Below are positions 8,785-64,000 of a DNA stretch of 64,000 nt, one piece after another. Both the position numbers and the translations under genes were made by a program. Positions within the stretch are counted from its first letter, which is position 1. Each line of letters begins with the position of its first letter. The DNA is from Haliclystus octoradiatus (lineage: Eukaryota; Cnidaria; Staurozoa; Stauromedusae; Haliclystidae): the NCBI GenBank assembly GCA_916610825.1, contig OU744450.1, positions 3,808,578 to 3,872,577 of the forward strand, written 5' to 3'. The notes beneath the pieces are model-generated. The model did not search any database. It was not told the DNA's origin and saw only the letters and a list, made by a program, of their open reading frames with translations.

Positions 8785-11700
8785 TCAATGTGAATAGAAC
8801 ACTCCATAGCTCAATGTGATCACATCATTATTTTTCAATTCATAGGAATCAAGACCAGTTGATGAACTTTTACCATTAACATAATATAGCCAAAATAAAC
8901 CATTATCTTTTGATTGATGATATTTGCAAATTTCTTTGACATATTTACCCCAATCAGTATATACATATTTGTGTTCGTAACAAGGTTCAATTTTTGATGC
9001 CAACTGTAAACCATCAAATGCAGTTAAACCCGTAGCAAGTGAAATATTTACTTGGCGATCCATAACTCCAATTTTACCTGGTATGCTGATCTGATATGTC
9101 ACTTGAATCTTCTGAAAATAAATAAATATTAAACAATTACAACATAATACCACCCTGTGAAAAACATTACTTTGTTCATGAACTGTTTGTGGACGGTTCA
9201 AATAATTATATAAATTATATAATACAATTACAACATAATATCACCCTGAAAAACATTAACGCTGTTCATGAACTGTTTGTGGGCGGTTCAAATAATTATA
9301 TAAATTATATAATACAACTACAACATAATATCACCCTGTGAAAAACATTAACTCTGTTCATGAACTGTTTGTGGACGGTTCAAATAATTATATAAATTAT
9401 ATAATACAATTACAACATAATATCACCCTGAAAAACATTAACGCTGTTTATGAACTGTTTGTGGGCGGTTCAAATAATTATGTAAATTATATAATACAAT
9501 TACAACATAATATCACCCTGTGAAAAACATTAACTCTGTTCATGAACTGTTTGTGGACGGTTCAAATAACTATATAAATTATATAATACAATTACAACAT
9601 AATATCACCCTGTGAAAAACATTAACTCTGTTCATGAACTGTTTGTGGACGGTTCAAATAATTATATAAATTATATAATACAATTACAACATAATATCAC
9701 CCTGTGAAAAACATTAACTCTGTTCATGAACTGTTTGTGGACGGTTCAAATAATTATATAAATTATATAATACAATTACAACATAATATCACCCTGTGAG
9801 AAACATTAACTCTGTTCATGAACTGTTTGTGGACGGTTCAAATAATTATATAAATTATATAATACAATTACAACATAATATCACCCTGTGAAAAACATTA
9901 ACTCTTTGTTCATGAACTGTTTGTGTGAACTGTTCATGAACACCTCATAAACAGTTCATGAACTACTTATCTACGTTAAATGATCTGTTTCATGAACAGT
10001 TCATGAAAATTGGATGATTTCATGTTCACAAACTGTTTTCGAATGGGTAATACTCTGTTGATGAACTGTTCGTAAACGGTTCAAATAATTATATAAATTA
10101 CATAATACAATTACAACATAATATCACCCTGTGAAAAACATTAACTCAGTTCATGAACTGTTTGTGTGAACTGTTCATGAACACCTCATAAACAGTTCAT
10201 GAACTACTTATCAACGTTAAATGATCTGTTTCATGAACAGTTCATGAAAATTGGATGATTTCATGTTCACAAACTGTTTTTGAATGGGTAATACTCTGTT
10301 CATGAACTGATCGTAAACGGTTCAAATAATTATATAAATTACATAATACAATTACAACATAACATCACCCTGTGAAAAACGTTAACTCAGTCCACGCACT
10401 GTTTGTGTGAACTGTTTATGAACACCTCATAAACAGTTCATGAATAGTTCATGAACTACTCATTAACGTTAAATGATCTGTTTCATGAACAGTTCATGAA
10501 AATTGGATGATTTCATGTTCACAAACTGTTTTTTAGAATGGGTAATGCAATCAACAAATAACCCATTATCCATGGTTTGCATTCCTGAAATTATGATCAT
10601 TTAATTAATACCTTGAGTCTTAGATATACTAAAATTGTATAAGATGCTTAGATATATTGAATCGCTACTGGAAACCTAACCGAAAACATACTGGAACGGG
10701 ATTGGGTACTAAAATCATAGTCAAGCTCACCCTCACTAGTTACTTGAATCTAGATTCTTCTCATTCGACTGAAAAACTATTGAAACAATCCAGAAACTAC
10801 TGAAAAGTGCCCAATTCAGTAGCTGGAAATTCGTAGTGTAATGAAGTGTATGCTACAAGAAAGCTACGGTGTAATCGATTGTCATTATAGCAACATCATT
10901 TTGCCCTAACGTATTTAAAAAAAAATTATTTTCCGTTGAAAAATTAAAGTTTCAAAATGAGCTTTCTTCTTAGTATTGGGTGATGACTACATATAATCTA
11001 GAGTTTTCCTACAGTGAGAAAGAGGTTTTGAGTTTTAAAAGATTTTTCAAGAAGAAATTAATGTATTCAATATAAACTAAATGATAATAAATGGATTTCC
11101 TCACTTATACAAATATGGATAATTTTTAAGGCATTACAAATAATTGTTTTTTCTTCTTGAAATAACAGTAAACATTTGTTTCATTGTCTAATCAGCAAGT
11201 ATATACGCAATTTTTTTTATTTATTTTTTTATTTTTTTATTTTTTTTATTTTTGTATTTATCATTTTTCCACGAACCGGGTAAGCTTACAGCTTTTTTTC
11301 ACCGGGGTGGTTGGTTGATTTGTTAGTATTTTGAAGCTTGTGTGCGTTTAATAGCCGGATGCTCTTCCTGACGCCAACCTGTAGTGCTTCGGACAGGGAT
11401 TGAACACGAGACCCTGCGGGCCGTGGTCCAACACCCTAGCCACTACACCAAGGCCGCCACTACACAATTGCAAGCATTGAAATTTCAAGGGTCATGTAGC
11501 AGATGTATGTGACTGTGCGCGTACGAGTATACACCTTCTGGATACAGACCATTTTATAACATTTTGTCCCACTTTTAAGTTCTTGGCGGTACAAAAGTGA
11601 GAAATTAAGCAAGCTCAACTGTATTCCTAGATCAATATTTCAAACATACCTTTGGAGGATAAGATTCAAGCTCACTACCTAAAAAGCAAAAAGTTATCTG

Positions 11701-26118: not shown

Positions 26119-29100
26119 GCTGTTTTTGTTGTTGTTGTTTTTGTTGTTGTTGTTGTTTTTGTTGTTGTTGTTGTTTTTGTTTTGTGGTTTTTGTTGTTGT
26201 TGTTGTGGTTATTGTAATTGTTGATTTTGTTGTTGTTGTTGTTATTGTTGTCCTACATAATATCAAACTACTTTTGCACTTGATGCTGGTTAATGTGCAG
26301 AGAGAAATTGAAAGATTTTTACTGTTCTTCTGATAGCTACATCATGGATCATGTTGAACTTTTTATTTTTTATTGCTATTTTCAACAGAGTCGCGAATGT
26401 GAATTATCTGCAAACAATCTACTTTCGAAGTCTGGGCTAGGAATACCAGGTACAATAATTTCAAAAATATATAAACAGCCAGCTACAAGTCATAAAGAAT
26501 TTCACCGTTATATGCAGGTGGCCTTTATTTACAGGTTTGATTCAATATGAAATACTATTTCAGCCATTACAAGAGTGATCACTATATACAGGAGTTCACT
26601 GTATAGAGATGACTGTTATTACAGGTTTGACCATACTATAAATATACTAGGAATCCCATTGATTTAGTAATGCCAGAACAATATTAGTAAAATCTGGTAT
26701 GTAGTGCTGGGATTGCTTTTGTCGAATCCCTGCGAAAACAGTTCATCAAAATTGAACAAATTAGCATTCATTAACAGTTCACAAAAAATTGGGACAATTA
26801 ACGTTCATGAATGAACAGTTCATGAAAATTGGACAAATTACCATTGATGAACAGTTAATGGAAATATGGCCAATTAACGTTTAGGAACAGTTCATGAAAA
26901 ATGGGCCAATTGACGTTCATGAACAGTCCATTAAAATTGGGACAATTAATGTCCATGAACAGTTCATGAATATTGGGCCAACTAACGTTCATGAGCAGGT
27001 CATGAAAATTGAGAGAACTGTTCATGAAATGTTTATAAGGTGTTATCAACAGTTCATGAACTCAACTAACTTTTTTGCCGGGGATTAGTTGAAACATCTT
27101 GCTGCCAAATTGCTAGCAACCTAGTACATAGGCAAAATTAGGAACCTGTTAAATGAGCAAAGTGACTCTATAGGTCCCAACACATTTACAGGCAAATATA
27201 AACGTGTGCACTGACGAGGAATCGAACCCTGGCCTCCCGCACAGAGACTCTAGTGCACTAGTAGCTCAGTGGCATAGCGTGTGACGTGTATGTTTTGGAG
27301 GCTGGGGCTTGATTCCTCGTTGGTGCACACATGTTGTTTGTATATATATATATATATATTTGTCTGTTCTCGCTACTCCAAGTTTCACGCCATACAGCGA
27401 TCATCAGGCAAGTACTTGCTTGCTTGCTCGTAAGATACTTGCCTGATGATCGCCGCTTCGCAGTATGGCGTGAAACTCGCAGTAGCGAGAACAGTATGTC
27501 TCTTTTTTTAATCATTTTATTTATTTATCTATTAAAGCTCTGATATTTATCATTGAGCACTATACCTACACAAGTGTGAACAACTTTATATTATTTATCT
27601 ATATATTTGTATGTAAATGTGTTTAAATAAACAATCAATAAACAGACACTTGTGCTTACGGGAATGACTATCATCTCTTGTAGTAAACTGAAAATTGTAA
27701 CATTTCATTATTATTATAAAGTCAGTTAACTAACATATATGATTATTTACTAGTAGGTTTTGTCTAATTTTTAGCCAACTCACGATGGATTTCTCCATTC
27801 CAAGGAACTCTTGCGAACCTTCTTATTTGTTTACAGTGCGGTTATCAGGTACAATGTACATATCATCTGTAAATTTTGCCTTTATTTTATTATTACTGTT
27901 TTAATTGAATAAGTATTACAGTGAAATCTGTATATACCAGCCATCTATGAGATGTAGATAAGTTGACCATTTCAGACAGGTTACGTTTATATACAGGGTT
28001 TATTTATTTTGAGGAGGATTAGCTCAGATGGCAGCAACCGAACTTCAGATCAGATCATATCTGATCGACCGTGGTTTAAATCCCTCGAAAGTCAACTCAG
28101 CCTTGACTTTATCTGAAACATCAAATGAGTACCTTCTTCTGATGGCGGATGGAATGGTCCAGAGGGAATTGCATTGTGAGTAACTGCTGCACATCGTTGC
28201 GCATTGACAATTGAGACCTGTCTCCCATCAAATCTGTAGAAATTGATCTGTAGTGTCGCGGCTCGATCAGTAAAGAGCGGTTAAAAATCATTGCTCTCAG
28301 CCACTCATCTAGAAATAGAGGAGTGGTACGGGTGACTTTGGTAGGGCGACACCGTCTACATAACTTATTACTTATTCAATGGAAAGTACTATTTCAGACA
28401 TACAAAAATGACCACTATAAGCAGATGGCCGCTGTATGGAGGTGACTGCTATAACAGGTTTGACTTTACTTATAAATTACTTAAATTCGTTATGCTGATC
28501 ATCAGCAATAAGGGGAAAACACAATAATTATCAACAGTTTTGATTTATTCTAAAATTATCATCAGGCAGTAAGAGAGAGCAAAATGTCCCGATTTCAATC
28601 TCTGTTTTCCTTGCTATATTCAATGGATCTGGATTATCACCAGGGAGCCATTTTTGTGTGCTCAATAAGGAAAACTGTATTGGAACTTACGTATAACAGC
28701 CAGCCATGACAGGAAAATAAATTGACCACTATAGAAAGGTGGCTGCTATAACAGGGTTGACTGTATGAATATGTTTCAATTTGTTTGACTTTGTAGTTTC
28801 CAGTCAATTTTCAAGTATTTGAAAGTGTACCTCTAACATGTCGTTCATCTCCTAGCAATATAGACGTATGTATTATAGTATTTATCTATACCTATGAATG
28901 TGTGCGTGGTCCAATTTTCTGCTATTTCCTCATAAAGATATGTCTTTATTTCAAAATAAATGATTTTCGGAAAAAATACACATATAGAGGGGACTGCCTT
29001 GGTGTAGTGGCTAGGGCGTTGGACCACGGCCCGCAGGGTCTCGGGTTCAATCCCTGTCCGGAGTACTATAGGTTAGCGTCAGGAAGGGCATCCGGCTATT

Positions 29101-49753: not shown

Positions 49754-50134
49754 TTGAATATCTTTTATGGTAGTATATTAGTAAACTTAGGAAAATAGCA
49801 AGCAGCTTGAATGAGATGATGACATTCTTACTTGCACATGTTTTTATCTTGTAGACAGTCTTAATTAACCAGGCCTTTGATATCTCCTGATTTCCTCATG
49901 CTATCTGAAACTTTTTATGCTTTTTACAAATAAAAGAAGCTTAGAGACTAGTGAACATGTCTATTGTCAACAACGTGACTCCATTTTGATCTTATAGCCT
50001 CTAAAAACTAATTTGAAGTCTCGAATTGAAGTTGATTTGACGAAAGAGAGCGAAAAAAGAAAGAATTTCGCAGAAAATCCAATCAGTGGTTTTATCCGCA
50101 ATAAAGTTGAACAAATAACAATAACTTTCCAACT
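49754..50134. promoter_or_regulatory. Bidirectional promoter region between DDX55 and MED15
   Basis: Only 381 bp separate the divergent start codons of two housekeeping genes, so both promoters and both 5'UTRs must fit here unless noncoding exons exist. No TATA box is evident on either strand. Confidence 0.65.
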
Positions 50135-53100
50135 ATGTCAAACGTAATGCAGGATTCAGACGATCAAAAATGGAGAACCAATGGTGACCTCAGGAATTTG
50201 GTGAAACAGAAAATGTAAGTTTGTATTTCTAAAGTTTTCGTGACTAGCTAAACGTTTATCTGTCAAATCGGTGTAAATGATGCCTGAAATTTATCACGTC
50301 TCTGCGTGCCTAGATTCAAATTATCGTGAATTATAATTTTTAAAAAATTGTCTTTTTCTTGTATTGTAGTGAAGCTAACATGCGTGGTTTCGAATCGATA
50401 ACATCTGACTCAAGTGCTGAGATTGAACATCAATTGATGACAACAGCAAAATCCAAGGTAGATTTTTATTTATCATCATTTATAGGCCTAGTAGGCTAGC
50501 TAGATAGTGATATACATGTAATAATGTTAGATATATAAAAACTTAACATTGGGAATTGGATAGTGCTCAATGCTAGTGAATAGCAGAACATAAATCTTTG
50601 GTTGTAAGTTTCACGTTATTAAAACATTTAATAAGATAATGATAGAGTTAGTGGTAGTGATATATCTATTTCTACCAATTACCAAATCTGTGGTTTCTGG
50701 CAAGTTACAATTTGCGACAACGCAGAACAAATTCTTTACCTTAATACCTTCCCATATCCCAGTCTGCAAAGCATGGCAGCTGCGCCCCCGTAATGGATAT
50801 TTTTTCTCATGATTGCCGCCCCCTATATCTGCAATTTTCATCAAAAATTAGAGTGCTTGTAAGAACCTGAAACGTCCAGCTAGGCATACTCCACATTGTG
50901 CCTATTTCCATAAACAGCATTTTAGGGTATCCCTTGTGGTGGGTCATTTCGTAATTTTTCGAAATCGATTAGTTGCGGACAAAAATCGATTCAGAATCAA
51001 GTAATCGTTCAAAAACAATAGACCTATTGTTTTCCAAGTTTTCTATGTCAATGCTGTTGAAAGCTCAAAAAAGTTTTTACGGCTTTTGTATTTCATTTCT
51101 TCGGAAATTATTCATTTCCAATCAATTATGTTTAAGAATCTCATCGTGGTTGTGATTTTTGTTTTTGAAAGTGTTACTCGCTGGTATTGATTATTCCAAA
51201 ATTAATTGTATTCATGTGTCAATTAGTGTGTGCGACACCAAATTTGTTTTCCCGGAATCGAGTAGCCCTTGCAAAATAAATAGGAATGGCGACAATAATT
51301 TTTCAATTCGGAATCTTATAAGCTAAGTTATTTAATGTTAAAAGTACCATATTTCAGACAAGCTCCTTCAAAAGTCGGAACTCATGTTGAAATGACAAAA
51401 GAGCCCACTATGGCAAAATAACAAAGTTTAGACTTAAAAAAATCGTAACTTTTTTCTCGCGAAAAAGAAATTGTCCACTTCCCAAAACAGATATGCCCAT
51501 ATCTTAGGACACCTTTTTGGCCATGTATGACTGAAATTGAACGTGAATGGTAGAGTTTGGAAAGGTTTATTAGACTTCAATGGAGTTTTGTTGTGAAAAG
51601 ATGTTGAAGCACTGGATCAACGCATGTCATGGAACAAGGTGTTGATTACTTAAACAGCGGCAAAACGCTCTGTATTCATGGGTAGATCGATGACAATAGA
51701 ACAATGAGTTTTGAACGTTTTCATCATCATTCGCGCGGTGAAGAGAATACAAAGTGTTTTTTAATTTACTTTAAATTGCAAAAGAATAAATCAAGAAAGC
51801 TTTGTTTTCAGTAAATAAGATATATGTAGGCTACTTAGAAAGAACAAGAAACACAATGTAAATGATAATCTATTTTATTGTACAAATCAAGCACTGAAAA
51901 AACAAACAAAAAATTTCCGATTAATCGATTCACAATTTCATAATCAATTCCTGAAAACATAATTGATTAATCAATGAATTGGACCCACCACCTAACCCTT
52001 AGGCTATGTTAATGAACTAAATTACTAAAGTATCAGTCGGATTTCTGATTCTGTTTTATAATTTTATTTGTCCTTCTTCTTGTAGACTGATTATCTGAAC
52101 ATGTCTGCGAGACTTATATTAAGTGCCCAAGATGCATGTAAGTAATTAAAGGTGTATCGTCATATTCATATTTCATATTCATAATTATATGATATTATGA
52201 TAGGCTTACCTACACTTCTATGTAAGAATAAAGGGTTACTGCACGGCAGCCGTGTTTGGGTTCTCTGATACCAACACGCGGGATGTTGGGAGACACTCGA
52301 GAAAGCATCAGACAAACAAGAGCCCGTAGGGCGATTGTTTTTCAGCTTTCGAGTGCCTCCCAACATCCCAAGTGTTGGTATCAGAGAACCCAAACACAAG
52401 GCTGCGGTGCAGTTACCCTTTTGTGAAACAAAACCTATTTTTACTATTTGTAAACGAATTCAACGTAAAATATTTGACTGATTAGATCAATTTTCTTCTA
52501 TAAATCTTCATGTCTTCGTCATATTTTGCCTTTCTTCGAATCACAGATCCGGAGTTATACTTTCGAACCACTTTCGATTCTTTCGAACGCCATGATTTTG
52601 ATCTGTCTTGACTCTCATTTCTGCTGTTTTGCAAACTTTTGACCGTTTGTAGGGCCTTTTTCTCTATGAATAGCCATACGACCAAACAAAATGATGCGAA
52701 AGGAAGAATGCTTTTAATTATGATATTCTGAAATATTTATATATCATCGACGATGCTAACGTTATTCAAATTTTTTTTTACAATTATTTAGAAAGTTTGG
52801 GGTTTTGTTTTTATCTATCAAGATTGTCCAAGTTGTTTTGGCTTGCGTGATCCAAAGACAGGAGTTAGCCAATCAAATTACTAAAACAGCATTCGAAAAT
52901 CTATCGAGTTTTACAATCATATTTACTACTAGGAATGTTTGAAGACATGAGTATGGTGGCCCATCGTTCTCATAGCATATTTCAACAAAAAACGATAGAA
53001 ACAGAATTAAAATACAAAAAATTGTGGGAAAAAAAATGAAAATACAATAAAATAATGAAAAAAAAAAAAAAATAATAAAAAATAATAAATAAATAAATAA

Positions 53101-56100
53101 ATAAAAAAATATAAAATAAAAAAAAATAATAAAAAAAAAAAAATAAAATAAAAAAAATAAATAAATAAATAAATAAAAAAAGAGAGAGGTATTGAAAGCT
53201 TTAGCCACAGGCGAGTGCTTTCAACACTTCCCGAGTGTCTTCCAACTTTTCAGAATGTAATAAATATGAATACAACGTTTGCAAGCATATGATACATTTA
53301 TAAAACGCTCATGTAAAAGTTCATGAATTGTGTCCATCTAACGTTCCTGAAAATAGTTCATGAACTGTTGATCAAAATGTGAAACTGTGTTTACAAGGTG
53401 TCCATGAACCGAACACATTTTAGTTAAACACACTCAACGTGTTTCAATATGTGGGGTTTTAAATTTTAATGATAATTGCATGATTTCTATTTGATAACAT
53501 TGGTCTATTATTAATGTATTTCATTCATCTATTTAGCAAATAGACAAAATCCAAGAGTTCAACAAGGTCAACCTCAACAGCCACAACTACAACAACAACA
53601 ATATCAACTAACTTCTCAGCCTCAAGTGTTGCAATCTCAACCATTAACATTATCAGTGAATCAACCATCACAACCTAGTCTACCTTCCAATTCGTCATTT
53701 TCTGTCAGCTCTGCTTTATCGATGCAAAATCAACTTGCGCAATTACAAGCTCAAAATGCATTACAGGGGATAGCAACTCCAAATCAAGCACAGAAGATGA
53801 CGTTGGTCAATATACAACAGCCGCAACAATCTGTAACGAATCAATTACAACAGTTTTCTACTGTATCAAGATTTCAACCATCTCCACAAACTTCAACTGT
53901 CACATTATCTGGTACATCCGCCCAGGTAAATGTAGGAATATAAATGCGAGAGTTGCGTAGTTGATCACAAAAAATGGTATAATAGAAATATGAATTTCTC
54001 TTATAAGCGTGAGATTAATACAGAGCATTGAATTAATTTTATTATAATTTTTCTCACTTCCAGCCAATAAATGTTGATCAAAACCAACAAGTAACACAAG
54101 CAATGTTGCAACGTATTAAACAGATCACCGCTGCGCAGGCACAGCAAAACATCACAACAACACAAGCAACACAAGCATTACTACTACATCAGCAGCAACA
54201 ACAACAACAACAGCAGTTTTCCCAACAGAATCTTGTGTCTACTAGCACAGGTTTGTGTAGTGTTTATTACTAGCATTCCAACAACATTCTAAGAACATGT
54301 CATGGAAAATTTGCCACACCGGCCGATGTTTGTTCTGACACTTTTATTATAGGGCGGTTTAAACCATGTGATATTTCTGCGCCTGTTTTGCTTGTTGCTG
54401 GTGATTGGTCGTTCGTGCCTTGGTTGATAGGCAAAATTTGTGTCGTGGCCACTTTCAATAAGGGCGTTCTCATAACTGATTTTAGCATTTTCGAAAATAG
54501 TGCTGTTGGATGACAAATCAGATATTCTTTGATTAATGGGCAATAGGTATGTGTTTTAGGATTGTTGGTGGATTGTTAGACTTGGTGTTGATGTACGATT
54601 GTTGGTGTCGAACATTTCTAAACCTTATCAAAAAACACTTTCCAAAGTTGAACGAGTTAAGCAAAATATTCAACGCCAACACCACCTCAAACATGAAGAC
54701 CATTATAACCAACCATAACAACGAAATAATTAACAGAGAAAAGAAAAATCAGCAGGCTTGTACTAAACAATGCAATTGTAGGGTAAAACGGCCTTGCCAT
54801 TTAACAATGAATGCCTCACAGAAAGCCTTGTTTACAGTTACTACCCTACCACAGAAGATCAGGAAGGTCAAAATTACATCGGTTTGACGGAGGAAACCTT
54901 CAAACAAAGATACACTCAGCATATGATGTCATTCAAACACAGAAAATATATTAACAGCACACAACTTTCGAAATACATTTGGAGATTAAATTATAGGAAA
55001 GAGAACTAAAAAATTGAATGGATCTGCCTAGCTAAAGCAAAAACATACAGCAACAAATCAAAAAAACGCCATCTATGTCTAATTGAAAAGTACCATATCA
55101 TTTGCGCAGAAGAAAATCTATTGAATAAAAAGTCTGAACTCATTCCCAAATGTAGACATGAAAATAAATTTTATCTAACGAATTATAAATCCGTGAAAAC
55201 ATAACATATATTTTATAATTTACATATGCAGATGATAACTAACCAGCGACAATAGGAAATTACAACAATACAAATTATTTCTAGCATCAAAACCCTTTGT
55301 TCTGTTAAACAATAACTGTAGGTTTGTAAGTCGATATAGGCGGAACTGTATGTTTTTCATTAATTAGTTTATTTGTCTGATGATTGCGTAAGCATGAAAC
55401 TATTAGTAACAATTATGAATGTGTAGTCTTTGACTTCTTTTATTATATTTTATTATATTTAGCTCTGTCAAATGACATTGAGCACTATTTTTTTGCTATT
55501 AGATAATATCTAATATATATATATATATATTATCGACTCGGGATGTGTCTATACTATTTGCATTATGCATTGCCCACTACTTCGGTAGTTTGAGCACTCT
55601 GGTATGGCACAGATGTTTTTTTCATGTGATGAATTTTTTCACCACATTTATAACTCATCTTGACTTAGGTGTATACTGAAGTCAGTTCCTTGTTCGCTCA
55701 CTGAGCAGTACTGATGAAGGCTAATGGCCAGAAACATGTACTTGTCTGCTGCTATGTATGTCTCAATTGCGCATGCGCAATTTTGAGCACTATCGACTCG
55801 GGATGTGTCTATACTATTTGCATTATGCATTGCCCACTACTTCGGTAGTTTGAGCACTCTGGTATGGCACAGATGTTTTTTTCATGTGATGAATTTTTTC
55901 ACCACATTTATAACTCATCTTGACTTAGGTGTATACTGAAGTCAGTTCCTTGTTCGCTCACTGAGCAGTACTGATGAAGACTAATGGCCAGAAACATGTA
56001 CTTGTCTGCTGCTATGTATGTCTCAATTGCGCATGCGCAATTTTGAGCACTATCGACTCGGGATGTGTCTATACTATTTGCATTATGCATTGCCCACTAC

Positions 56101-59100
56101 TTCGGTAGTTTGAGCACTCTGGTATGGCACAGATGTTTTTTTCATGTGATGAATTTTTTCACCACATTTATAACTCATCTTGACTTAGGTGTATACTGAA
56201 GTCAGTTCCTTGTTCGCTCACTGAGCAGTACTGATGAAGGCTAATGGCCAGAAACATGTACTTGTCTGCTGCTATGTATGTCTCAATTGCGCATGCGCAA
56301 TTTTGAGCACTATCGACTCGGGATGTGTCTATACTATTTGCATTATGCATTGCCCACTACTTCGGTAGTTTGAGCACTCTGGTATGGCACAGATGTTTTT
56401 TTCATGTGATGAATTTTTTCACCACATTTATAACTCATCTTGACTTAGGTGTATACTGAAGTCAGTTCCTTGTTCGCTCACTGAGCAGTACTGATGAAGG
56501 CTAATGGCCAGAAACATGTACTTGTCTGCTGCTATATATATTATTATATATATATATATATAATAATAATAATGGAGTCAAAGACTACGCATTCATTTTC
56601 TGTAACTTGAAGTTTCTTGCTTTATGCGATCATCAGACAGATACTATGATGATCGCATAAAGCGAGAAACTTCAAGTTACAGAAAATGAATGCATAGTCT
56701 TTGACTCCATTATTATTATTATTCACGCTCTGTCAAATGACATCGATCACTATGTCAGCTGCTGTTAGATACCATATTATTATTATTTTTACATTATATA
56801 TATACCCAATACTTTTTAAGTGCTTGTAATTTACAAATGAAAAACATATTGTACGGTACCTAGAATATCTTTTTTACAAATATTCAAGGACTTTAATCAA
56901 TTATTTTTTTAATCTTTTCCTTTTTCAGGGTCACTCCCGCAAGCCACATTTGTACGCCAACCAAATGCATCCAACTTACAAACATCCCAAATCAGTAGCC
57001 TTCGACTTCAACAATTACAACAGCAACAATTACAAAACCAACAAACACTGAAACAACAACAACAACTGAAGCTCCAACAACAACAGCAAGCACAGCAACA
57101 AAATCAACAAAAATTCATTCAACAACAACAAGTTCAACAACAACAACAACAACAGCAAGTCCAACAACAACAACAACAAGTTCAACAACAACAACAACAA
57201 CCACAATTTCAACAGCAACAACAACAGCAACAAAAATTGCAACAGCTACAACAACAACTTCAGCAACAACAACAGCAAAAACAACAACAATTCAAACAAC
57301 AGCAACTTCAACAACAACAAAATCAACAGCAACAACAAATACCAAGATTTAATATGACTCAGGTTAAATCACAGCCCTCTCCTGTTCAATATCAATCTGC
57401 AGTATCCCCTGCCCCTCCAAGATCGGTTCCCTCCCCTGCTGCTATAAAGACTGCTCCATCCCCTGGACCGCAAAGTCAACCATCGCCATCTCCTGTGGTA
57501 GGTTATGTATTTATGTTTTAACCTGTTTTTAACAGCCATATATAAGATCTTCTTAGATTGGCCATTATAGACAGGTGTGTGTGTGTGCATGCTTATGTGA
57601 ATTTGTTTTCACTTTGTAAATTACAATGTTGAGATACAACCACATGAGCTATAAGCTTATTAATGTGGATACGAAAGACTGGATATCAGTCACATTTATA
57701 TATATAGCATCTTAAAATTACAATGAGAATTTTTTACAATCGTAAAAGACATATTGTGCCCCTACGAGGAATCAGGCACTCAACCACTGAACTATTGATG
57801 CACAGTAGAGGTCTGCGAATCCAATCCGATCAGGTTTTTGTCAGATTTAGATCAATTTCTATTATTCAAAAATGGATCAGATTTCGTTGCAAATGTTAAA
57901 TCTGAATCCAAAATTTTCAGACTTTTTGCGGATCATTCGGATCGGATTGGATTCTGATCAGATCGGATCCGGATCGCAACATATTTCAAACATTCAGATT
58001 ACTTGTATGTAATCCGATCCGATGCGGAAATCTAATTCTCGAATGGTTTAGTTACATAGGGTTTGTTTCAATCAAATGATTCATTTTATATACAGTTAAA
58101 CAGCCAGCTATGAGAGGTAGATAAATTGACCACTATAGACAGGTTGCCTTTATATACAGGTTTGATTCAATAGAAAATACTATTTTTGACATTGCAAGTG
58201 TGACCACTATAGACAGGTGGCCGCTGTATAGAGGTTACCGTTATAACAGGTTTTGACTGTATTTCTCGAATGGCCACTTTGTACAACTGGCTGTTAGAGA
58301 GAGATGACCATGAAGCAGGTTTGTTTGTACCTCATTCAAACATTGTTAATGACATTATTTTTTCATGCTCTTCGTGCCCATCATAATATCTTGCACATAG
58401 GATGGACACACAGGAAATTAATATATACTCACCTAAGGTGTTTTGATTTGTTTACACTTCACTTGTGTTTTCCAACATTACTTGTGCATAGAAGTACTAG
58501 TAGGGATGAAGCTTGATTGTCTGATTCTAGGGTATGGCGTCCCCTCTTCCATCTGTCCCAACACCTGGCAATCCACTATCAACTGGTGGATCGGCACCTA
58601 GTCCATTAACACCATCAGAAGAAGTAGCATACCACGATAAGGTGAAATTTTGTTTTTCTCTTACAATGGAACCTGAATATAAAAATCAGTTATGAGATCA
58701 GGCATGTGCATGAGAAAACTCACAGAAAACTCCAACGACAAACACATATCTACCTATTCCCATGCGAAAAACATTTCAGGAGTTCATGAACAGTTTACGA
58801 ACAGTCCATGAACGTTAAATGGCTCCAAATTTTTCATGAATTGTTCATGATTTCCTGAACTGTTTTTCGCAGGAGGAGTCACTCTAATTACGCATATATA
58901 ACAATGTTTGTTGAATTGGTTTGTGAATAGTTCATGAACTGATTTCACAAGAAGGTCTCAGCTATGCTATTAAGGGAAAGCATCCACATTAAATTGTTCA
59001 AATGCAATATACAATACCGTACAAAGTCCATTGTCCACTATCCAGAGAATGAAAGATATTTTAGATAAATTGAAACTATCAATAAATAAATCATTTTTAA

Positions 59101-60084
59101 TGAAATATATTTAATTTTATTTAATTTGTTATAGCTTCGTGAATTGAATCGATTTGTTGAGCCTTTGCGAAGAATGATTGCGACAGTCCCAACAGATGAA
59201 GGTTTGTTTATATTTACATTTGTGATGTGATGTAAGATAAATGAATACAGTATTAATATTGCGATTTGCTGGAACTCTAAGATTCATGAACAGTTGTCAC
59301 CGGATATCACATGATTGCCAGATCAATCCAGAGAAACCTAACAATCTGTAATTTGCCTATAGATGTTCAGGAGGTTTGTGAACAGTTCATGAACTAAACA
59401 AATTTACTCACAGGCAGGGGTGAATAACAGATAATATCAGGAAGGTTCACCTCTTCGAAAAACGGTCCAAGAATTCATGAACAGTTCATGAATGCTAAAT
59501 GTCCCTAATATCCATGCACCTTCACGGAAAGTTCATGAAAATTTGGCACCATTTAACGTTCATGAACTGTTCATGAACTCCTGAACTGTTTTTGCTGGAT
59601 CAATACAGCAGTCGGAAATGTTGTACATAATGGCTATACAGTATATCACCTCATATATATATATACTGTACCAGTCCGAGTATACAAACAAAGGATTGTT
59701 TGTGATTATTGGAAAATTTTTGAATGATTTATAAAAATAAAATAGTAGAATTTATTGTATTTCTTGAAACTCCCTCAACTTTGCAGCGCATTGCCCTACT
59801 TATCTACTCAACCTACAAAACACTGTTTAAATTTCAATTTTCAAATCTGATATATGGTTAAATGGTATTTACAGGACATAAACGTCAAATGGATAAGCTC
59901 AATGCTCTTTTAGACATCCTCACGAAACCAACACGAAAGTAAGTGATTTTTATGCCAATCATCTATTATCATTGATTCTGTTAAATTATAAAACACGATA
60001 ATTTATTTTCTGTTTTTAATTATCAGAGTACCATTAAAAGCTCTCTTCAAATGTGAAGATGTATTGATAAAGCTACTTGGTGCA
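50135..60084 (+). CDS. MED15: Mediator complex subunit 15 (5' part; C-terminus beyond window)
   Basis: Ten exons join in phase: 50135-50214, 50370-50457, 52086-52137, 53537-53925, 54064-54250, 56929-57497, 58531-58641, 59135-59201, 59875-59938 and 60027-60084, giving 555 residues (human 788). Exons 1-3 encode the KIX domain (about residues 9-73: WRTNGDLRNLVKQKIEAN ... TDYLNMSARLILS), the docking site for activators such as SREBP. Exons 4-6 are Gln-rich; exon 6 alone has long CAA/CAG-coded Gln runs. Exons 7-10 encode a Ser/Pro-rich linker and the conserved middle part (LNRFVEPLRRMI, LDILTKPTRKVPLKALFKC). MED15 sits in the Mediator tail in the nucleus and links activators to RNA polymerase II. 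The C-terminal domain is missing because the window ends inside the next intron, which a LINE occupies. Confidence 0.93.
50458..52085 (+). other. MED15 intron 2
   Basis: 1.6 kb with no recognised gene or clear transposon. Repeated AATCGATTxx words (50960-51000, 51920-51980) at two places may be the ends of an element of about 1 kb, but the match is short. Confidence 0.4.
52230..52423. repeat. Foldback element in MED15 intron 3
   Basis: Left arm 52231-52306 (AGGGTTACTGCACGGCAGCC, GTGTTTGGGTTCTCTGATAC ...) pairs with right arm 52347-52422 (... GTATCAGAGAACCCAAACAC, GGTGCAGTTACCCTT). Arms are about 75 bp with few mismatches, around a 40-bp loop. No hammerhead core is present. Confidence 0.85.
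53035..53185 (+). repeat. A-rich low complexity / (AAAT)n
   Basis: About 150 bp of A runs and AAAT repeats. The complement gives a meaningless Phe/Tyr/Leu-rich frame. Confidence 0.95.
54289..54543 (-). pseudogene. Penelope-like element, inverted upstream fragment
   Basis: The minus-strand frame reads INQRISDLSSNSTIFENAK, then RRRNITWFKPPYNKSVRTN, the conserved stretch that follows the reverse transcriptase in Penelope-like proteins (family pattern: RRRxIIWFNPPFSxNVxTNIG). In an intact element this precedes the part found on the plus strand at 54590. The strand switch between the two pieces implies an inversion at the 5' end of the insertion. Confidence 0.75.
54560..55205 (+). pseudogene. Penelope-like element, GIY-YIG endonuclease fragment
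   Basis: The plus strand encodes FLNLIKKHFPKLNELSKIF, a Cys motif (CNCRVKRPC), then NNECLTESLVYSY, NYIGLTEETFKQRYTQH, NSTQLSKYIWRLN, KIEWICLAKAKTY, HLCLIEKYHIIC and LNKKSELIPKCRHENKF. This is the Cys-rich linker and GIY-YIG endonuclease of endonuclease-bearing Penelope-like retroelements. A single-base frameshift lies near 54798 and an in-frame TAA at 55007-55009, so it is dead. It sits in MED15 intron 5 and is followed by the hammerhead at 55373. Confidence 0.88.
55372..55413 (+). ncRNA. Hammerhead ribozyme downstream of the Penelope remnant
   Basis: Stem I TTGT (55373-55376), core CTGATGA (55377-55383), stem II TGC/GCA around GTAA, GAAA (55396-55399), stem III C-G and U-A pairs closing a three-base loop, cleavage triplet GTA (55406-55408), stem I strand ACAA (55409-55412). 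It lies 3' of the endonuclease fragment, where Penelope-like elements carry hammerheads in their terminal repeats. TTGAGCACT follows at 55480. Confidence 0.72.
55704..55753 (+). ncRNA. Hammerhead ribozyme, retrozyme copy 1
   Basis: Stem I AGCAGTA (55704-55710) pairs over 7 bp with TGCTGCT (55747-55753), with one G-U. Core CTGATGA is 55711-55717; stem II GGC/GCC closes a five-base loop, with an A-A mismatch at its base; GAAA is 55731-55734. Stem III (A-U, C-G, A-U) closes a six-base loop. The cleavage triplet is GTC (55744-55746), cut after 55746. Confidence 0.85.
55964..56013 (+). ncRNA. Hammerhead ribozyme, retrozyme copy 2
   Basis: Same as copy 1, shifted 260 bp. G to A at 55980 breaks one stem II pair, so this copy may be weaker. 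Predicted cut after 56006. Confidence 0.8.
56224..56273 (+). ncRNA. Hammerhead ribozyme, retrozyme copy 3
   Basis: Identical to copy 1; predicted cut after 56266. Confidence 0.85.
56484..56533 (+). ncRNA. Hammerhead ribozyme, retrozyme copy 4 (at array end)
   Basis: All ribozyme bases are kept, and the array breaks off three bases after stem I, at 56536. Predicted cut after 56526. Confidence 0.83.
56563..56723. repeat. Palindrome with two hammerhead arms
   Basis: About 75-bp near-perfect inverted arms (AATGGAGTCAAAGACTACGC and its complement near 56700). The left arm, read on the minus strand, is a hammerhead: stem I TCTGT/ACAGA (56641-56637 with 56603-56599), CTGATGA (56636-56630), GAAA (56616-56613), GTT cleavage triplet (56606-56604); one stem II pair is mismatched. 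The right arm has ATGATGA in place of CTGATGA, so its core is damaged. Confidence 0.7.
57808..58030 (+). repeat. Dispersed GATCCGATC-type repeat
   Basis: Starts GAGGTCTGCGAATCCAATCC, contains GATCGGATTGGATTCTGATC and ends ATCCGATCCGATGCGGA. MED15 intron 6. Confidence 0.6.
58091..58261 (-). mobile_element. Pogo-type MITE copy
   Basis: TACAGTTAAACAGCCAGCTA to TAACAGGTTTTGACTGTA, minus orientation, with a small deletion near its start. Confidence 0.82.
58757..58876. mobile_element. GTTCATGAAC foldback MITE copy
   Basis: TTCCCATGCGAAAAACATTT start and CTGAACTGTTTTTCGCAGGA end are inverted. MED15 intron 7. Confidence 0.85.
59448..59602. mobile_element. GTTCATGAAC foldback MITE copy
   Basis: CACCTCTTCGAAAAACGGTC start and CTCCTGAACTGTTTTTGCTG end. 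MED15 intron 8. Confidence 0.8.
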
Positions 60085-60487
60085 GTAAGTAGAATCATTC
60101 GATAGAATATATTTAGTTTTGAAAAAGCAAGCTGTGAAGTGTTTGCAAAAGCAAATATCAAAATTAACTAGAAAACTACTAGAATGTAAGTTTAATTTCC
60201 ATTTGACTGCCATAATGTATAATAACATTGATGCGGTTGATAGGTAGGAGAATGAAATTACAAGTAAACAGGGCATTCAGAAATATGCAATGTTTACATT
60301 TGTAATAGATTATGACATACCCTACCGCTACATATCTACTGTATGTGTACAGATTTCATATTGCGCAATCCAAGCTGAACGGACGCGTTTTGTTATCGCT
60401 CCGTTTTTTTTGCCCAAACAAGTAGATTTTTTATGATATTTTTCATTATGTGAAGTTATATTTCAACTACAACAAACACTACGAATA

Positions 60488-61288
60488 ATGTCAACTCGTG
60501 GCAAAGCTGCTTCAGCTCCACTCACGAAAAACGACCTATATGAGCTATTGGACTCACCGAGATTTGTCAAAGCAGTGCAATCCGCTTTTGGTTCAATTCT
60601 CAAAGAAATACAAATGCAAAATGCCAGACTAACTGAAGCTGTAGAACAACAAAGAAAGGATATTGATGATGTTAAGGAAACATTGAAAAAACAATCTAAT
60701 GAGAAATTCAAACTAAAAACGTCTCTCAACGGCCAGAGAAAGTCGGATAAACTCTGCCAGCTAAGGGTGGATGGAATGCAAACGAATGAACAGCATGTTC
60801 AAGATGACATACTGAATCTTTTCCAAGGTAAACTTGCTGTTGAAAGCATCCAGCAAGGAGATTTTTCAACTAGGATTTTGCCAGTAAAGCAAACTAAGGT
60901 AAAATCTGTTCGAAAAAGTAATGAATATCCGCCATTATCGTCTACAAAGAATTGCGCAACCGAGGCCACTTCAGTCACAGACACAATGGCTGCCACATCA
61001 GTTAACAAAAGGGTCATTATTGTGCGATTTCACAATATTTGGCTTAGGAAGAAAGTTCACGCAGCAAAAAAGGCTTTGAAAGGCACCGGTATCTTCATCA
61101 GCGAAGATTTACCCCAAAAAACAAACACAACATTCTACAAGTGTAGACAACTGGCAAAAAAGAAGAAAATTACAACAACCTGGACGTATGAACTGAACAT
61201 TTACGTGAAAAGACTTGATGATGAAATCATTTTAATCCAAGACGACTATGACCTGCTTCAGCTGGATGATAGTGATGAGTGTTTTTAA
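60488..61288 (+). CDS. LINE ORF1 protein (coiled-coil, nucleic-acid-binding type)
   Basis: The 266-residue frame starts MSTRGKAASAPLTKNDLYEL, has a heptad-like coiled coil at about 38-75, then a basic C-terminal part with VIIVRFHNIWLRKKVHAAKK, GTGIFISEDL and YKCRQLAKKKKITTTW. That order matches ORF1 proteins of jockey/CR1/L2-type LINEs, which bind the element's RNA. ORF2 follows 376 bp later. It lies in the MED15 intron after exon 10. The frame is open over its full length. Confidence 0.78.
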   Translation: MSTRGKAASAPLTKNDLYELLDSPRFVKAVQSAFGSILKEIQMQNARLTEAVEQQRKDIDDVKETLKKQSNEKFKLKTSLNGQRKSDKLCQLRVDGMQTNEQHVQDDILNLFQGKLAVESIQQGDFSTRILPVKQTKVKSVRKSNEYPPLSSTKNCATEATSVTDTMAATSVNKRVIIVRFHNIWLRKKVHAAKKALKGTGIFISEDLPQKTNTTFYKCRQLAKKKKITTTWTYELNIYVKRLDDEIILIQDDYDLLQLDDSDECF

Positions 61289-61664
61289 AATAATTTCTTT
61301 CCTTCGCTTCTATCTCTACGCATCTTATTTTTTCGTTTCCTTGATCTATAGCGACTTGAATCAGCTTCGTGATAGTGATGAGTGATATCTTAATTTTTTA
61401 TCTTTTAACATTATTGACTGCTTTTTCTTCACCTAATTATTTAATGCATTTTACTCACAACATATCATTTTCTCGTCACCCTTGCCATCATCTACATTAT
61501 CATTATCAATGTCCTAGGCCGCCTAATCATAATATTGTTTGTTTATTATTATTTTCTAATTCATTCTCAATTCTTCATTCCAAACGTTGCAGTTCAATTT
61601 CATACGTACCGAAAACCTTTGTTAATTTCATCTTTATTTCAAACCATTACCAAACTGAAACTGT

Positions 61665-64000
61665 ATGACTTCTACTGATCTTGACAATATTTTTAATCAG
61701 TGTGACGTAGTAAAGAGGCTAGGATATATCACCACAAGTGATGTACCAGACTTGCCCATGTCCTTTGCAACACAAAATGTGAGAAGTTTGTTGAAGAACC
61801 ATAGCAGTGTCTCTGATCTCATAACATGCTCAAATTTGAAGGTGCTTGCTATACAAGAAATTTGGCAAGGTGGTGATCTTACTTTACCAAATCACGCTTA
61901 TTTTTCAAAAGAACGAAGCACCAGAGGTGGGGGTGTTGGCTTAGTCGTTCACAATTCCTTTAATTGTTCAATAAATGAAAATCTTTCCCAAACAAACAAA
62001 GATATCGAAATTATAGTTGCTGCCAATAAATCCTATGTATTTATATCCATTTACACCCCCCCCCCACATTCCGAGTTTTATTGGACACCTGTAAAAATGA
62101 AACAGTTTTCATTGGAGGAGATTTCAATGTTAACATGCTACATGAGTCCAGCAAGCTAGATGATCTTTTATGTTGTTTCATGCAATTTCAATTTTTTCCA
62201 CTCACCGCGAAACCTACACGGATCACAACAAGGTCATGTACACTTCTTGATAACATATTTACAAATTTTAAAAACAACTTAGTGACAGGAATAATTACAA
62301 CTGAGATTTCTGATCATTTATGCCCGTTTGTCTATTTTCAAGTGAAGGAACATACCTGTACACCAACAACCACTACTTTTCGCAACATGTGTGATTCAAA
62401 CCTAGAGCTTCTACAAAATCGTCTTGCTCAATGTAATTGGTTTCTTCCAGAGGATCCTGTAGGAGCTTTTTCTCAATTTCATAATCAATTTGAAGACTGT
62501 CTCAATGAAACTTGTCCAATCATTGAAAATAAAATAAACAAAAACAAACAAAAACTAAACCCATGGATGACAAATGGCCTTTTAATTTCCAGAAAACGAA
62601 AAATGAGATTGCATCATGAATGGATAGCTTCAAAAAATATAGAAACAAAAAAATATTATGATCAATACTCAAAAGTCTACTTCAAAGCTGTACGTAAATG
62701 TAAGGTATTATACCGGCATCATTTTTACAAAAATTACAAAAACAACATTAAATTACTATGGCAAGCAACAAATAATCTCCTTGGTAGGAATAAGAAGAAA
62801 AATAGATACCCCGATCTTTTCAATGTTGAAGGCATTGAAATCAAAAACGTACAAGACATTGCTGAGAATTTTATCCACTTTTCACCAATGTTGGACCTCA
62901 ACTTGCCCAAAATTTTTCAATCAACAATAATTTCAAACAGTATCTACCTCAAAATCCAAATGTTTCTTTTAACTTCAAAATTGTTTCCCCAGTCACAGTG
63001 ACAAATGTTATCAAAAAGTTAAAAAATAAAAGTAGTTCTTCATTTGATTTGGTTTCTAATAAATGTTTGAAATATGTTTACCCAGAAATAATCGCACCTT
63101 TGACTTATCTTATCAACTTATCTCTTAAAACAGGTTTCATCCCTGACAGTTATAAAATAGCAAAGATGTTACCGATTTTTAAAGCAGGTGATAATCAAAT
63201 TCTATCAAATTATAGACCAATTTCTTTATTATCAAGTTTTTCTAAAATTTTTGAACGTATTGTATACAATCTGCTCTATAAGTATTTTGAATTAAATTTT
63301 TTAACAAAATTCCAATTCGGCTTCAGGAAGTCTTTTGATACAACACATTCTGTTCTCAATTTTTTACACAATCTTTTTGCAAATCGTTCCAAAAGACATC
63401 ATATTGCCATTTTCTTGGACCTAAAAAAGGATTTGACACTGTCAACCATGAAATTTTGTTAAATAAACTGGCTCATTATGGTATTAATAATAATGAACTT
63501 GAATTCTTCAAAAATTATCTTTTCAAAAGGCAACAAGCTGTTTCATTTGAAAATGCTATCTCTGGACTACAGACTATAACTTGTGGAGTTCCTCAAGGCA
63601 GTATACTTGGTCCTCTACTCTTTTTGATATATATCAATGATTTACCTGATAATACAAAATTCCATGTTAGCCTTTTTGCTGATGACACAACCCTACAAAT
63701 GTCTGATTCTGATTTAAACACATTTGAGAACGATGTCAATGAGGAACTCATTGTTGTCACAAAGTGGTTTTATGACAACCAGCTGAGCCTGAATGAGTCA
63801 AAAACAAATTATATGATTTTTCACAATCCTTTGAAAGCAGATCTAAATATAAAAATAAATAACAGAATTATTGAACGTTGTAGAACAAATTGTAGCAAAA
63901 AATATGTCAAATTTCTTGGTGTTTTAATAGATGATCATTTGAATTTCAAACAACACGTCGAATTTGTTTGTAAAAAAATCCGCAGACTTTGCTACACATT
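61665..64000 (+). pseudogene. LINE ORF2: endonuclease and reverse transcriptase, three frameshifts, runs off the window
   Basis: Endonuclease part: ATQNVRSLLKN, LAIQEIWQGG, VFIGGDFNVN, CTLLDNIFTN and TEISDHLCPF. Reverse transcriptase part: NYRPISLLSSFSKIFER, QFGFRKSFDTTHSVLNF, FDTVNHEILL, CGVPQGSILGPLLFLIYIND and the catalytic FADDTT (near 63680). The reading frame shifts at the ten-C run 62056-62065, at the T run near 62880, and at the A/G run near 63430. After 63430 the frame stays open to 64000. Family: jockey/CR1/L2 group. All three breaks are at short homopolymers, so assembly errors are possible as well as true decay. Confidence 0.88.

Follow-up and report, generated by a model that had tools for sequence, protein, structure and literature searches.

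A probable animal retrozyme in Haliclystus octoradiatus whose insertions most commonly start at the predicted ribozyme cleavage site

We analysed a 64,000-nucleotide stretch of the Haliclystus octoradiatus genome (the window; contig OU744450.1, C6:3808578-3872577, inside a 262-Mb genome of 33 contigs) that contains a tandem array of a 260-bp unit, with a hammerhead ribozyme layout in every copy. We consider, at a probability of about 0.8, that the array arose by the recent insertion of an animal retrozyme without long terminal repeats (non-LTR), a non-coding and non-autonomous retroelement that moves by the cycle proposed below. Related insertions are dispersed over the genome. They share a near-fixed 3' end, and their commonest 5' end is the first nucleotide past the bond that the hammerhead is predicted to cleave. 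From this coincidence, cleavage in vivo is most likely, even though a mismatch in the ribozyme runs through the whole family.

The unit is repeated 3.86 times in tandem at 55531-56534, as three full copies and a near-full fourth; Tandem Repeats Finder gave a period of 260, 3.9 copies and a match of 99% at 55531-56539. A comparison of the four units found one difference, a G to A change at unit position 190 in unit 2. Because the units differ at this single position, the array is young. Its GC content is 41%, compared with 34% for the window, and lies under the limit of 50% for animal non-LTR retrozymes. The only open reading frames (ORFs) found inside it at a cut-off of 60 amino acids (aa) were minus-strand frames of 60 aa, and the unit has no long frame. 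The array sits within the (TA)n that ends a broken Penelope-like element (PLE).

CTGATGA...GAAA cores begin at 55711, 55971, 56231 and 56491, exactly 260 bp apart. Each unit reads AGCAGTA, CTGATGA, A, stem II, A, GAA, ACA-TGTACT-TGT, C and, past the predicted cleavage bond, TGCTGCT. This matches a type I hammerhead in layout, with a stem I of 7 bp (including one G.U), a stem II of 3 bp and a stem III of 3 bp; the CUGAUGA core, GAA, A15.1-U16.1, the three stems and a predicted GUC cleavage triplet are all present. A first-pass annotation of the window had described four tandem hammerheads at this spacing, and the repeat call and the core positions agree with it. It had also assigned an intact GGC/GCC stem II to all four, which is correct for units 1, 3 and 4; unit 2 alone carries GAC in place of GGC, and its stem II is broken. 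On the plus strand, a layout descriptor matched units 1, 3 and 4, at 55711, 56231 and 56491; these were its sole matches in the 64 kb, both strands included. It found no match in 300 dinucleotide shuffles of the window, which bears out the claim that the core is beyond chance; the descriptor imposed no pair at positions 10.1/11.1, having been designed with the array already known, and the shuffles were scored identically.

The genome-wide search proposed in the first-pass annotation showed that the unit belongs to a dispersed family. It gave at least 166 matches, counting best candidates only, and those listed lie on C1, C2, C4-C8, C10 and C11. The array 3' end joined to (AT)n was found at 232 places with at most one mismatch, and the pattern read backwards at none. 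Two sets of loci were aligned. Set 1 comprised 40 array regions from the genome search and is biased to intact, multi-copy arrays. Set 2 comprised 80 of the 84 new places among 100 listed of the 232 3'-end places and was picked by the 3' end only; its regions span 640 upstream bases, which truncates arrays longer than about 2.5 units. The standard 3' end was present in 122 of 132 aligned groups (120 loci), set 2 having been chosen for that end and set 1 not. The copied part nearly always terminates at unit positions 223-225, where stem I has its outer end, 7 to 9 nt past the cleavage bond. At least eight further A/T-only bases followed the aligned end in 29 of the 40 set 1 insertions used, and 0 to 7 in the other 11, with the aligned end often already within the AT repeat. 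The flanks are richer in AT than the window (66%): over 40 bp, the mean was 85% on the downstream side of set 1 and 84% on the upstream side of all 115 insertions described below. The targets were (TA)n, (ATT)n and similar tracts. One insertion (L041) is flanked by an 11-bp direct repeat, ATAACAGCTAT, judged by eye to be a target site duplication; such duplications are unreadable in (TA)n targets. Several insertions (among them L033, L035, L107, L111, L124 and L141) lie in copies of one repeat with flanks 95-100% alike, and since their 5' ends differ they are separate events. No LTR, primer binding site or polypurine tract was noticed at the junctions, although no search was aimed at them. A near-fixed 3' end, a variable 5' end and AT-microsatellite targets are as expected of retrotransposition, and together with the dispersed, non-coding tandem organization they support the retrozyme identity given in the first-pass annotation. 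As separate observations, the right flanks of L038, L048, L051 and L033 hold an unknown repeat (AGCAATGAGTGTAGTCC and near variants) after the AT tract, apparently another family that the retrozyme entered via its AT tract, and the retrozyme arrays or pieces of L050, L023 and L034 are inverted and near each other.

To locate the 5' ends, we aligned the 115 uncut insertions of at least 40 bp locally to repeated units. The hammerhead is predicted to cleave between unit positions 216 and 217, and 217 was the commonest 5' end, with 8 of 115 insertions against 0.44 expected (p = 2e-8; the expectation assumes even odds across the 260 positions, and all p values are binomial). The other ends within 216-225 fell at 216 (two), 219 (one), 220 (two), 222 (two), 223 (six) and 225 (one), and no position outside this interval had more than three. 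Joining the two ends at 216 with the peak gave p = 2.6e-8, and the 21 of 115 ends in 216-223 gave p = 6e-11. The peak was found in both sets (3/40, p = 5e-4 in set 1; 5/75, p = 1e-5 in set 2). Bases in common with the (TA)n target favour some ends, and positions were therefore classed by the extent of this overlap. Position 217 has an overlap of 1 nt, and the 109 other positions of its class (216-223 excluded) had a mean of 0.37 ends and a maximum of three. The six ends at 223 were left out of the evidence for cleavage, as they have the three bases TAT in common with (TA)n targets. An all-against-all comparison found no pair with similar flanks among the eight insertions starting at 217. Genome-wide, (TA)4 was joined to position 217 at 15 places, seven of them in examined loci (L023, L034, L054, L082, L122, L133 and L134) and eight new; the corresponding counts were 8, 0 and 1 for positions 36 (with 34), 61 and 131, the first of which also takes in ends at 34 and so overstates the background. 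In set 2, 26 of 75 insertions reached at least 1.03 units, and six of those 26 start at 216 or 217. This clustering at the predicted bond strengthens the retrozyme identity, and it is the basis for considering in vivo cutting most likely. Among the open-licence papers listed in searches on the subject, none reports retrozyme insertions with cleavage-site 5' ends in its title or abstract opening.

The proposed cycle is as follows. Arrays would be transcribed. Some type I hammerheads of the multi-unit RNA would then self-cleave between C216 and U217, as the insertion 5' ends suggest. A reverse transcriptase encoded elsewhere, most likely by the PLEs of this genome (judging from shared targets, related ribozymes and the literature), would open a (TA)n or (ATT)n tract. 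Copying would begin at the stem I outer end of an uncut ribozyme, a start mechanism suggested alongside the observed fixed 3' end; it would extend over anything between part of a unit and more than 11 units, and would halt at varied points or, as the observed peak at 217 suggests, at a 5' end made by a ribozyme. The ribozyme would work with A.A (C.A in older copies) at 10.1/11.1, perhaps as a dimer via its near-palindromic stem III, and PLE protein perhaps aids the mismatched ribozyme.

The lengths of the insertions bear on the form of the template. A template must have been uncut (or religated) at its terminal ribozyme, because a cut RNA would bear the start point at its extreme 5' end. The insertions with a 5' end at 217 measured 1.05, 2.06, 3.05 and 3.21 units, which argues that their template was cut one or more units upstream and was linear and longer than one unit. 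We therefore infer that the templates of these insertions were linear RNAs longer than one unit and not one-unit circles, the 260-nt product that the first-pass annotation had expected from transcripts here; other insertions may have derived from circles. In its general form, this proposal is that a cut hammerhead sets the template 5' end, that stem I of the next uncut hammerhead marks the start of reverse transcription, and that movement occurs as linear RNAs of more than one unit; circles would then be a by-product, and the A.A mismatch would tune the ribozyme so that some sites stay uncut. We advance it tentatively and at rather less than even odds.

The published mode, in which monomers are ligated into 260-nt circles and a reverse transcriptase circles several times to make homogeneous arrays, comes close to an even chance. 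Circles are proposed as the template of animal retrozymes, and circular RNAs are shown for coral, mussel and axolotl retrozymes, in PMC7229834 (this paper and PMC3088659, PMC6466107, PMC4918200, PMC6155905, PMC8490949 and PMC7761336 are cited from excerpts throughout). Our arrays are mostly homogeneous: at four subfamily sites, 27 of the 28 arrays with at least three segments had a single type (the exception is L052), and three private variants occupied every covered unit of their arrays (L034, 3/3; L050+, 4/4; L050-, 2/2). The 12 ends at 219-225 could also be full-turn stops, made when the enzyme gets back to 224, the point from which it set out. However, a circle of one unit would lack a 5' end at 217, the very position where insertions most often start, arrays of 2.06, 3.05 and 3.21 units among them. 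A monomer cut at 216/217, moreover, has the start at 224 just 8 nt from its 5' end and could template no unit unless religated or uncut.

The likeliest movers of the family, in our analysis, are PLEs, which Cervera and de la Pena proposed as retrozyme movers (PMC7229834, excerpt). PLEs with reverse transcriptase and GIY-YIG domains are present in this genome, with 16 GIY-YIG matches, and a 769-aa frame at one locus (L071) matched both Pfam models. This locus also has a CTGAAGA...GCGAAAC core behind each of two tandem coding pieces (locus positions 2146 and 4754). In the PLE of an anole, the DNA that is cut is AT-rich, reverse transcription has a start internal to the RNA and downstream of the ribozyme, and the ribozyme needs protein to cleave (PMC11167929), all of which agrees with PLEs as the movers here. 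The alternative that the family is a SINE-like element (SINE, short interspersed nuclear element) moved by a long interspersed nuclear element (LINE) is unlikely. Elements moved by LINEs can likewise show a fixed 3' end, 5' truncation and microsatellite tails, and a LINE-like frame with a reverse transcriptase match lies in the window at 62998-63462. On the other side, inverted neighbours are a PLE trait. PLEs also carry a hammerhead, lie as tandem copies in AT-rich targets and start reverse transcription internally (PMC11167929), and no further element with the same 3' tail was noticed in set 2, where no systematic test was made.

The mismatch lies at the base of stem II. Of 116 arrays, 111 have A at unit position 188 (10.1), four have C and one has G; at position 200 (11.1), 115 have A and one has U. 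The A.A mismatch noted in the first-pass annotation is thus present, and it is family-wide, not local decay; the Watson-Crick pair 10.1-11.1 of hammerheads is lacking. Among array-terminal copies, 89 of 117 are exact from CTGATGA to TGCTGCTA and 28 differ. None of those inspected combines a Watson-Crick 10.1/11.1 pair with an intact core, indicating that the family spread already carrying the mismatch. The ribozyme variants that recur in at least three of about 116 arrays are restricted to N7 (185), 10.1 (188) and loop III (207). N7 is a variable position in hammerheads. The 12-mer of stem III, ACAUGUACUUGU, self-pairs at 10 of 12 positions, and PLE-type 9-mers at 6 to 8 of 9 (G.U counted). 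The older C188 copies L099, L126, L129 and L132 all have A207, and with it a 12-nt stem III that is self-complementary over its whole length; A207 also occurs in L077 and L114. Three of these four C188 copies carry C at N7, and they look like an older subfamily with another mismatch at 10.1 (C.A). In PLE-type hammerhead-like cores, 10.1/11.1 is U.U at 55377, 27443, minus-strand 27407 and, by eye, L074; the minus-strand core at 56636 has U-A there, yet by eye a mismatch one step further. Natural U10.1-U11.1 has been reported (Perreault et al. 2011, in PMC3088659), and according to the same excerpt a palindromic stem and loop III may permit dimers.

Several observations weigh against reading the array as an active retrozyme moved in this way. 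The A.A mismatch should weaken cleavage, because U.U supports more cleavage than other 10.1/11.1 mispairs in the excerpt of PMC3088659. A covariance search with Rfam (50000-62000 and 55340-56800) found no hammerhead family even at E<=10, one of three results that the first-pass annotation had named beforehand as jointly refuting, and over the whole window no Rfam family reached its gathering score. The minimum-energy folds from RNAfold, of a 260-nt unit and a 58-nt core, both contained all seven stem I pairs and lacked stems II and III; the folded 260-nt stretch includes the unit 2 mutation. The ribozyme is not the best conserved part of the unit: array-level variability was 0.83% in its 50 nt, 2.3% in 1-173 and 0.55% in 230-260 (coverage differs). 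Another 3' end was found in 10 of the 132 aligned groups, and private variants were confined to a single unit in most arrays. The 260-bp unit was sought in 18 GIY-YIG loci (13 distinct places) with no match, so its tie to PLEs is an indirect one. Finally, a transcription start at 217 would yield an identical peak. In addition, the RNAfold z-scores were unremarkable (-0.53 for the 260-nt unit and -0.82 for the 58-nt core). Conservation was dropped as proof of the ribozyme, as 231-260 and 41-80 were equally conserved in 20-nt windows, and the best Rfam matches, to microRNA models below threshold on the palindrome 56591-56691, were taken as chance.

A rival reading is that A.A abolishes cleavage and that the peak at 217 reflects either the start of transcription or a structural stop of the reverse transcriptase. 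The mismatch does hit a pair that, in conservation within the motif, is second only to A15.1-U16.1 (PMC3088659, excerpt), and Rfam gives no score. We regard a dead ribozyme as improbable nonetheless: an enzyme arriving from the 3' side would halt at stem I, at about 224, and not between stems I and III; the chance of a start site coinciding with the predicted bond is about 1 in 260; and the recurrent ribozyme variants are limited to the three sites named above. Ordinary satellite DNA, spread via unequal crossing over or DNA-level duplication, would account for tandem arrays and for L045, whose 11.7 units are of mixed types as if later exchanged (L052 is also mixed), yet it is highly improbable, being contradicted by dispersed partial and single-copy insertions, the common 3' end, AT-microsatellite targets, the preferred 5' end, and arrays that are short where satellite arrays are long with ends not fixed.

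The features of the array and its surroundings are collected in Table 1. The remnant upstream of the array has 71% DNA identity to the PLE locus L074 over about 355 bp. We take its frames to be PLE protein, by eye, from their likeness to PLE proteins; two submitted fragments of the remnant matched nothing in Pfam. A query with 54200-55330 gave 86 genome matches, and one with 55341-55540 gave 2118 first-look candidates genome-wide. The 54200-55330 segment and its matches form a PLE-derived element with an internal inversion (query 121-396 against 410-1130, opposite strands), found at about 90% identity in dozens of places, i.e. a multiplied non-autonomous derivative. Glutamine-rich (Q-rich) open stretches lie on both sides of the array (about 53560-53943 and 56928-57521), and frames 53626-53943 and 56928-57518 matched no Pfam family at E<=0.01; the placement in MED15 intron 5 by the first-pass annotation was thus not confirmed.

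Table 1. Positions of the retrozyme array, its hammerheads and adjoining features in the window.
Feature	Positions	Strand	Evidence
PLE ORF remnant: broken frames, GIY-YIG-like stretch, PLE-like C-terminus	54537..55204	+	By eye; 71% DNA identity to L074
3' part of PLE remnant, ending in the array-holding (TA)n; core 55377 (U.U at 10.1/11.1; predicted cleavage 55408/55409 if active)	55205..55530	+	
(TA)n target sequence, left side of array	55512..55530	.	Sequence reading
Retrozyme array, three full 260-bp units and a fourth that stops where ribozyme stem I ends, at unit position 224	55531..56534	+	Tandem Repeats Finder, genome search, junctions, unit comparison
Hammerhead 1	55704..55753	+	Descriptor match; position-by-position reading; homologous position 217 is the pile-up of insertion 5' ends
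Hammerhead 1, stem I	55704-55710/55747-55753		
Hammerhead 1, CUGAUGA	55711-55717		
Hammerhead 1, A10.1	55718		
Hammerhead 1, stem II	55719-55721/55727-55729		
Hammerhead 1, A11.1	55730		
Hammerhead 1, GAA	55731-55733		
Hammerhead 1, stem III	55734-55736/55743-55745		
Hammerhead 1, C17	55746		
Hammerhead 1, predicted cleavage	55746/55747		
Hammerhead 2, stem II broken (GAC/GCC); predicted cleavage 56006/56007 if active	55964..56013	+	Missed by descriptor
Hammerhead 3; predicted cleavage 56266/56267	56224..56273	+	Descriptor match
Hammerhead 4; predicted cleavage 56526/56527; final ribozyme, stem I is the insertion 3' end	56484..56533	+	Descriptor match, junctions
Putative reverse transcription start, outer end of stem I, unit positions 223-225	56533..56535	+	Fixed 3' ends of insertions
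AT-only stretch, right side of array	56534..56574	.	Sequence reading
Head-to-head inverted pieces of related PLE 3' sequence; hammerhead-like core 56636 (minus)	56561..56790	.	L074 matches in opposite orientations

Other parts of the window hold related or repetitive sequence. Head-to-head hammerhead-like cores at 27407 (minus) and 27443 (plus), CTGATGATCGC...GCGTGAAAC, have U.U at 10.1/11.1 like the core at 55377 and are possibly a PLE remnant. At 43170 (plus), a CTGATGA...GAAA core is followed by ATTGAGCACTCT, which resembles TTGAGCACT of the PLE tail and the 260-bp unit; stem III was not seen. A LINE-like remnant at 60488-63462 consists of frames in succession; the last matches Pfam RVT_1, and the first two resemble ORF1 and an endonuclease by eye only. 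Tandem arrays at 9122-10546 and 26737-27011 (units of 92, 241 and 36 bp, and others) have the common words TTCATGAAC and AACAGTTCATGAA and are perhaps one repeat system. Beyond the window, COX1 reads with TGA as Trp and has AGR codons at sites of conserved Arg, which would fit genetic code 4 and a non-bilaterian animal.

By most tests the 260-bp family is an animal non-LTR retrozyme, and it departs from a canonical ribozyme in the 10.1/11.1 pair and the Rfam score. PLEs with minimal hammerheads are reportedly the subject of work by Cervera and de la Pena in 2014 and Lunse in 2017. The family resembles the animal non-LTR retrozymes in the excerpt of PMC7229834 in its non-coding tandem units (260 bp here, 150-450 published), a type I hammerhead per unit, GC below 50%, dispersed small arrays and PLEs in the same genome. 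In contrast to these as described, it has a family-wide A.A (older C.A) mismatch at 10.1/11.1 and goes undetected by Rfam, and it shows cleavage-site 5' ends, apparently linear templates of more than one unit and a strict stem I 3' end, traits that the published retrozymes may share. Minimal type I hammerheads and hammerheads with a mismatched 10.1/11.1 pair have been described (excerpts of PMC7761336 and PMC3088659, respectively), and PLE minimal hammerheads share the short stem III and the palindromic stem or loop III (PMC6466107 and PMC3088659, excerpts). PLEs are also alike in AT-rich targets and an internal start of reverse transcription downstream of the ribozyme (PMC11167929), whereas the 260-bp unit has no coding capacity and thus no ORF with reverse transcriptase and GIY-YIG domains. 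The start lies 7-9 nt after the cleavage bond here and about 85-92 nt after it in the anole PLE (computed from positions in PMC11167929), and the anole study saw no RNA reads at its ribozyme cleavage site. Plant LTR retrozymes are likewise non-autonomous retroelements processed by hammerheads (PMC4918200, excerpt), but have type III ribozymes, 600-800 nt, LTRs and Gypsy machinery (according to the excerpt of PMC7229834). Newt satellite and Schistosoma alpha repeats, which are mentioned in excerpts of PMC6155905 and PMC8490949, are a further parallel. They are tandem or SINE-like, their type I hammerheads are possibly dimeric, and no 5'-end signature is known in them.

Animal retrozymes themselves were already known; what is new here is the DNA footprint of predicted ribozyme cleavage, together with the putative linear templates of more than one unit. 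The genome appears to record ribozyme cleavage, in that insertions start at the predicted bond and their structure reveals the RNA that was copied. Counts of insertion 5' ends can be applied to any assembled genome that bears retrozymes, so that circular and linear templates become testable from DNA alone. The results also suggest, from genomic sequence, that a hammerhead missed by Rfam and with a non-Watson-Crick 10.1/11.1 pair can be active in an animal. If the proposal of linear templates is true, retrozymes would move as RNAs bounded by one cut and one uncut ribozyme.

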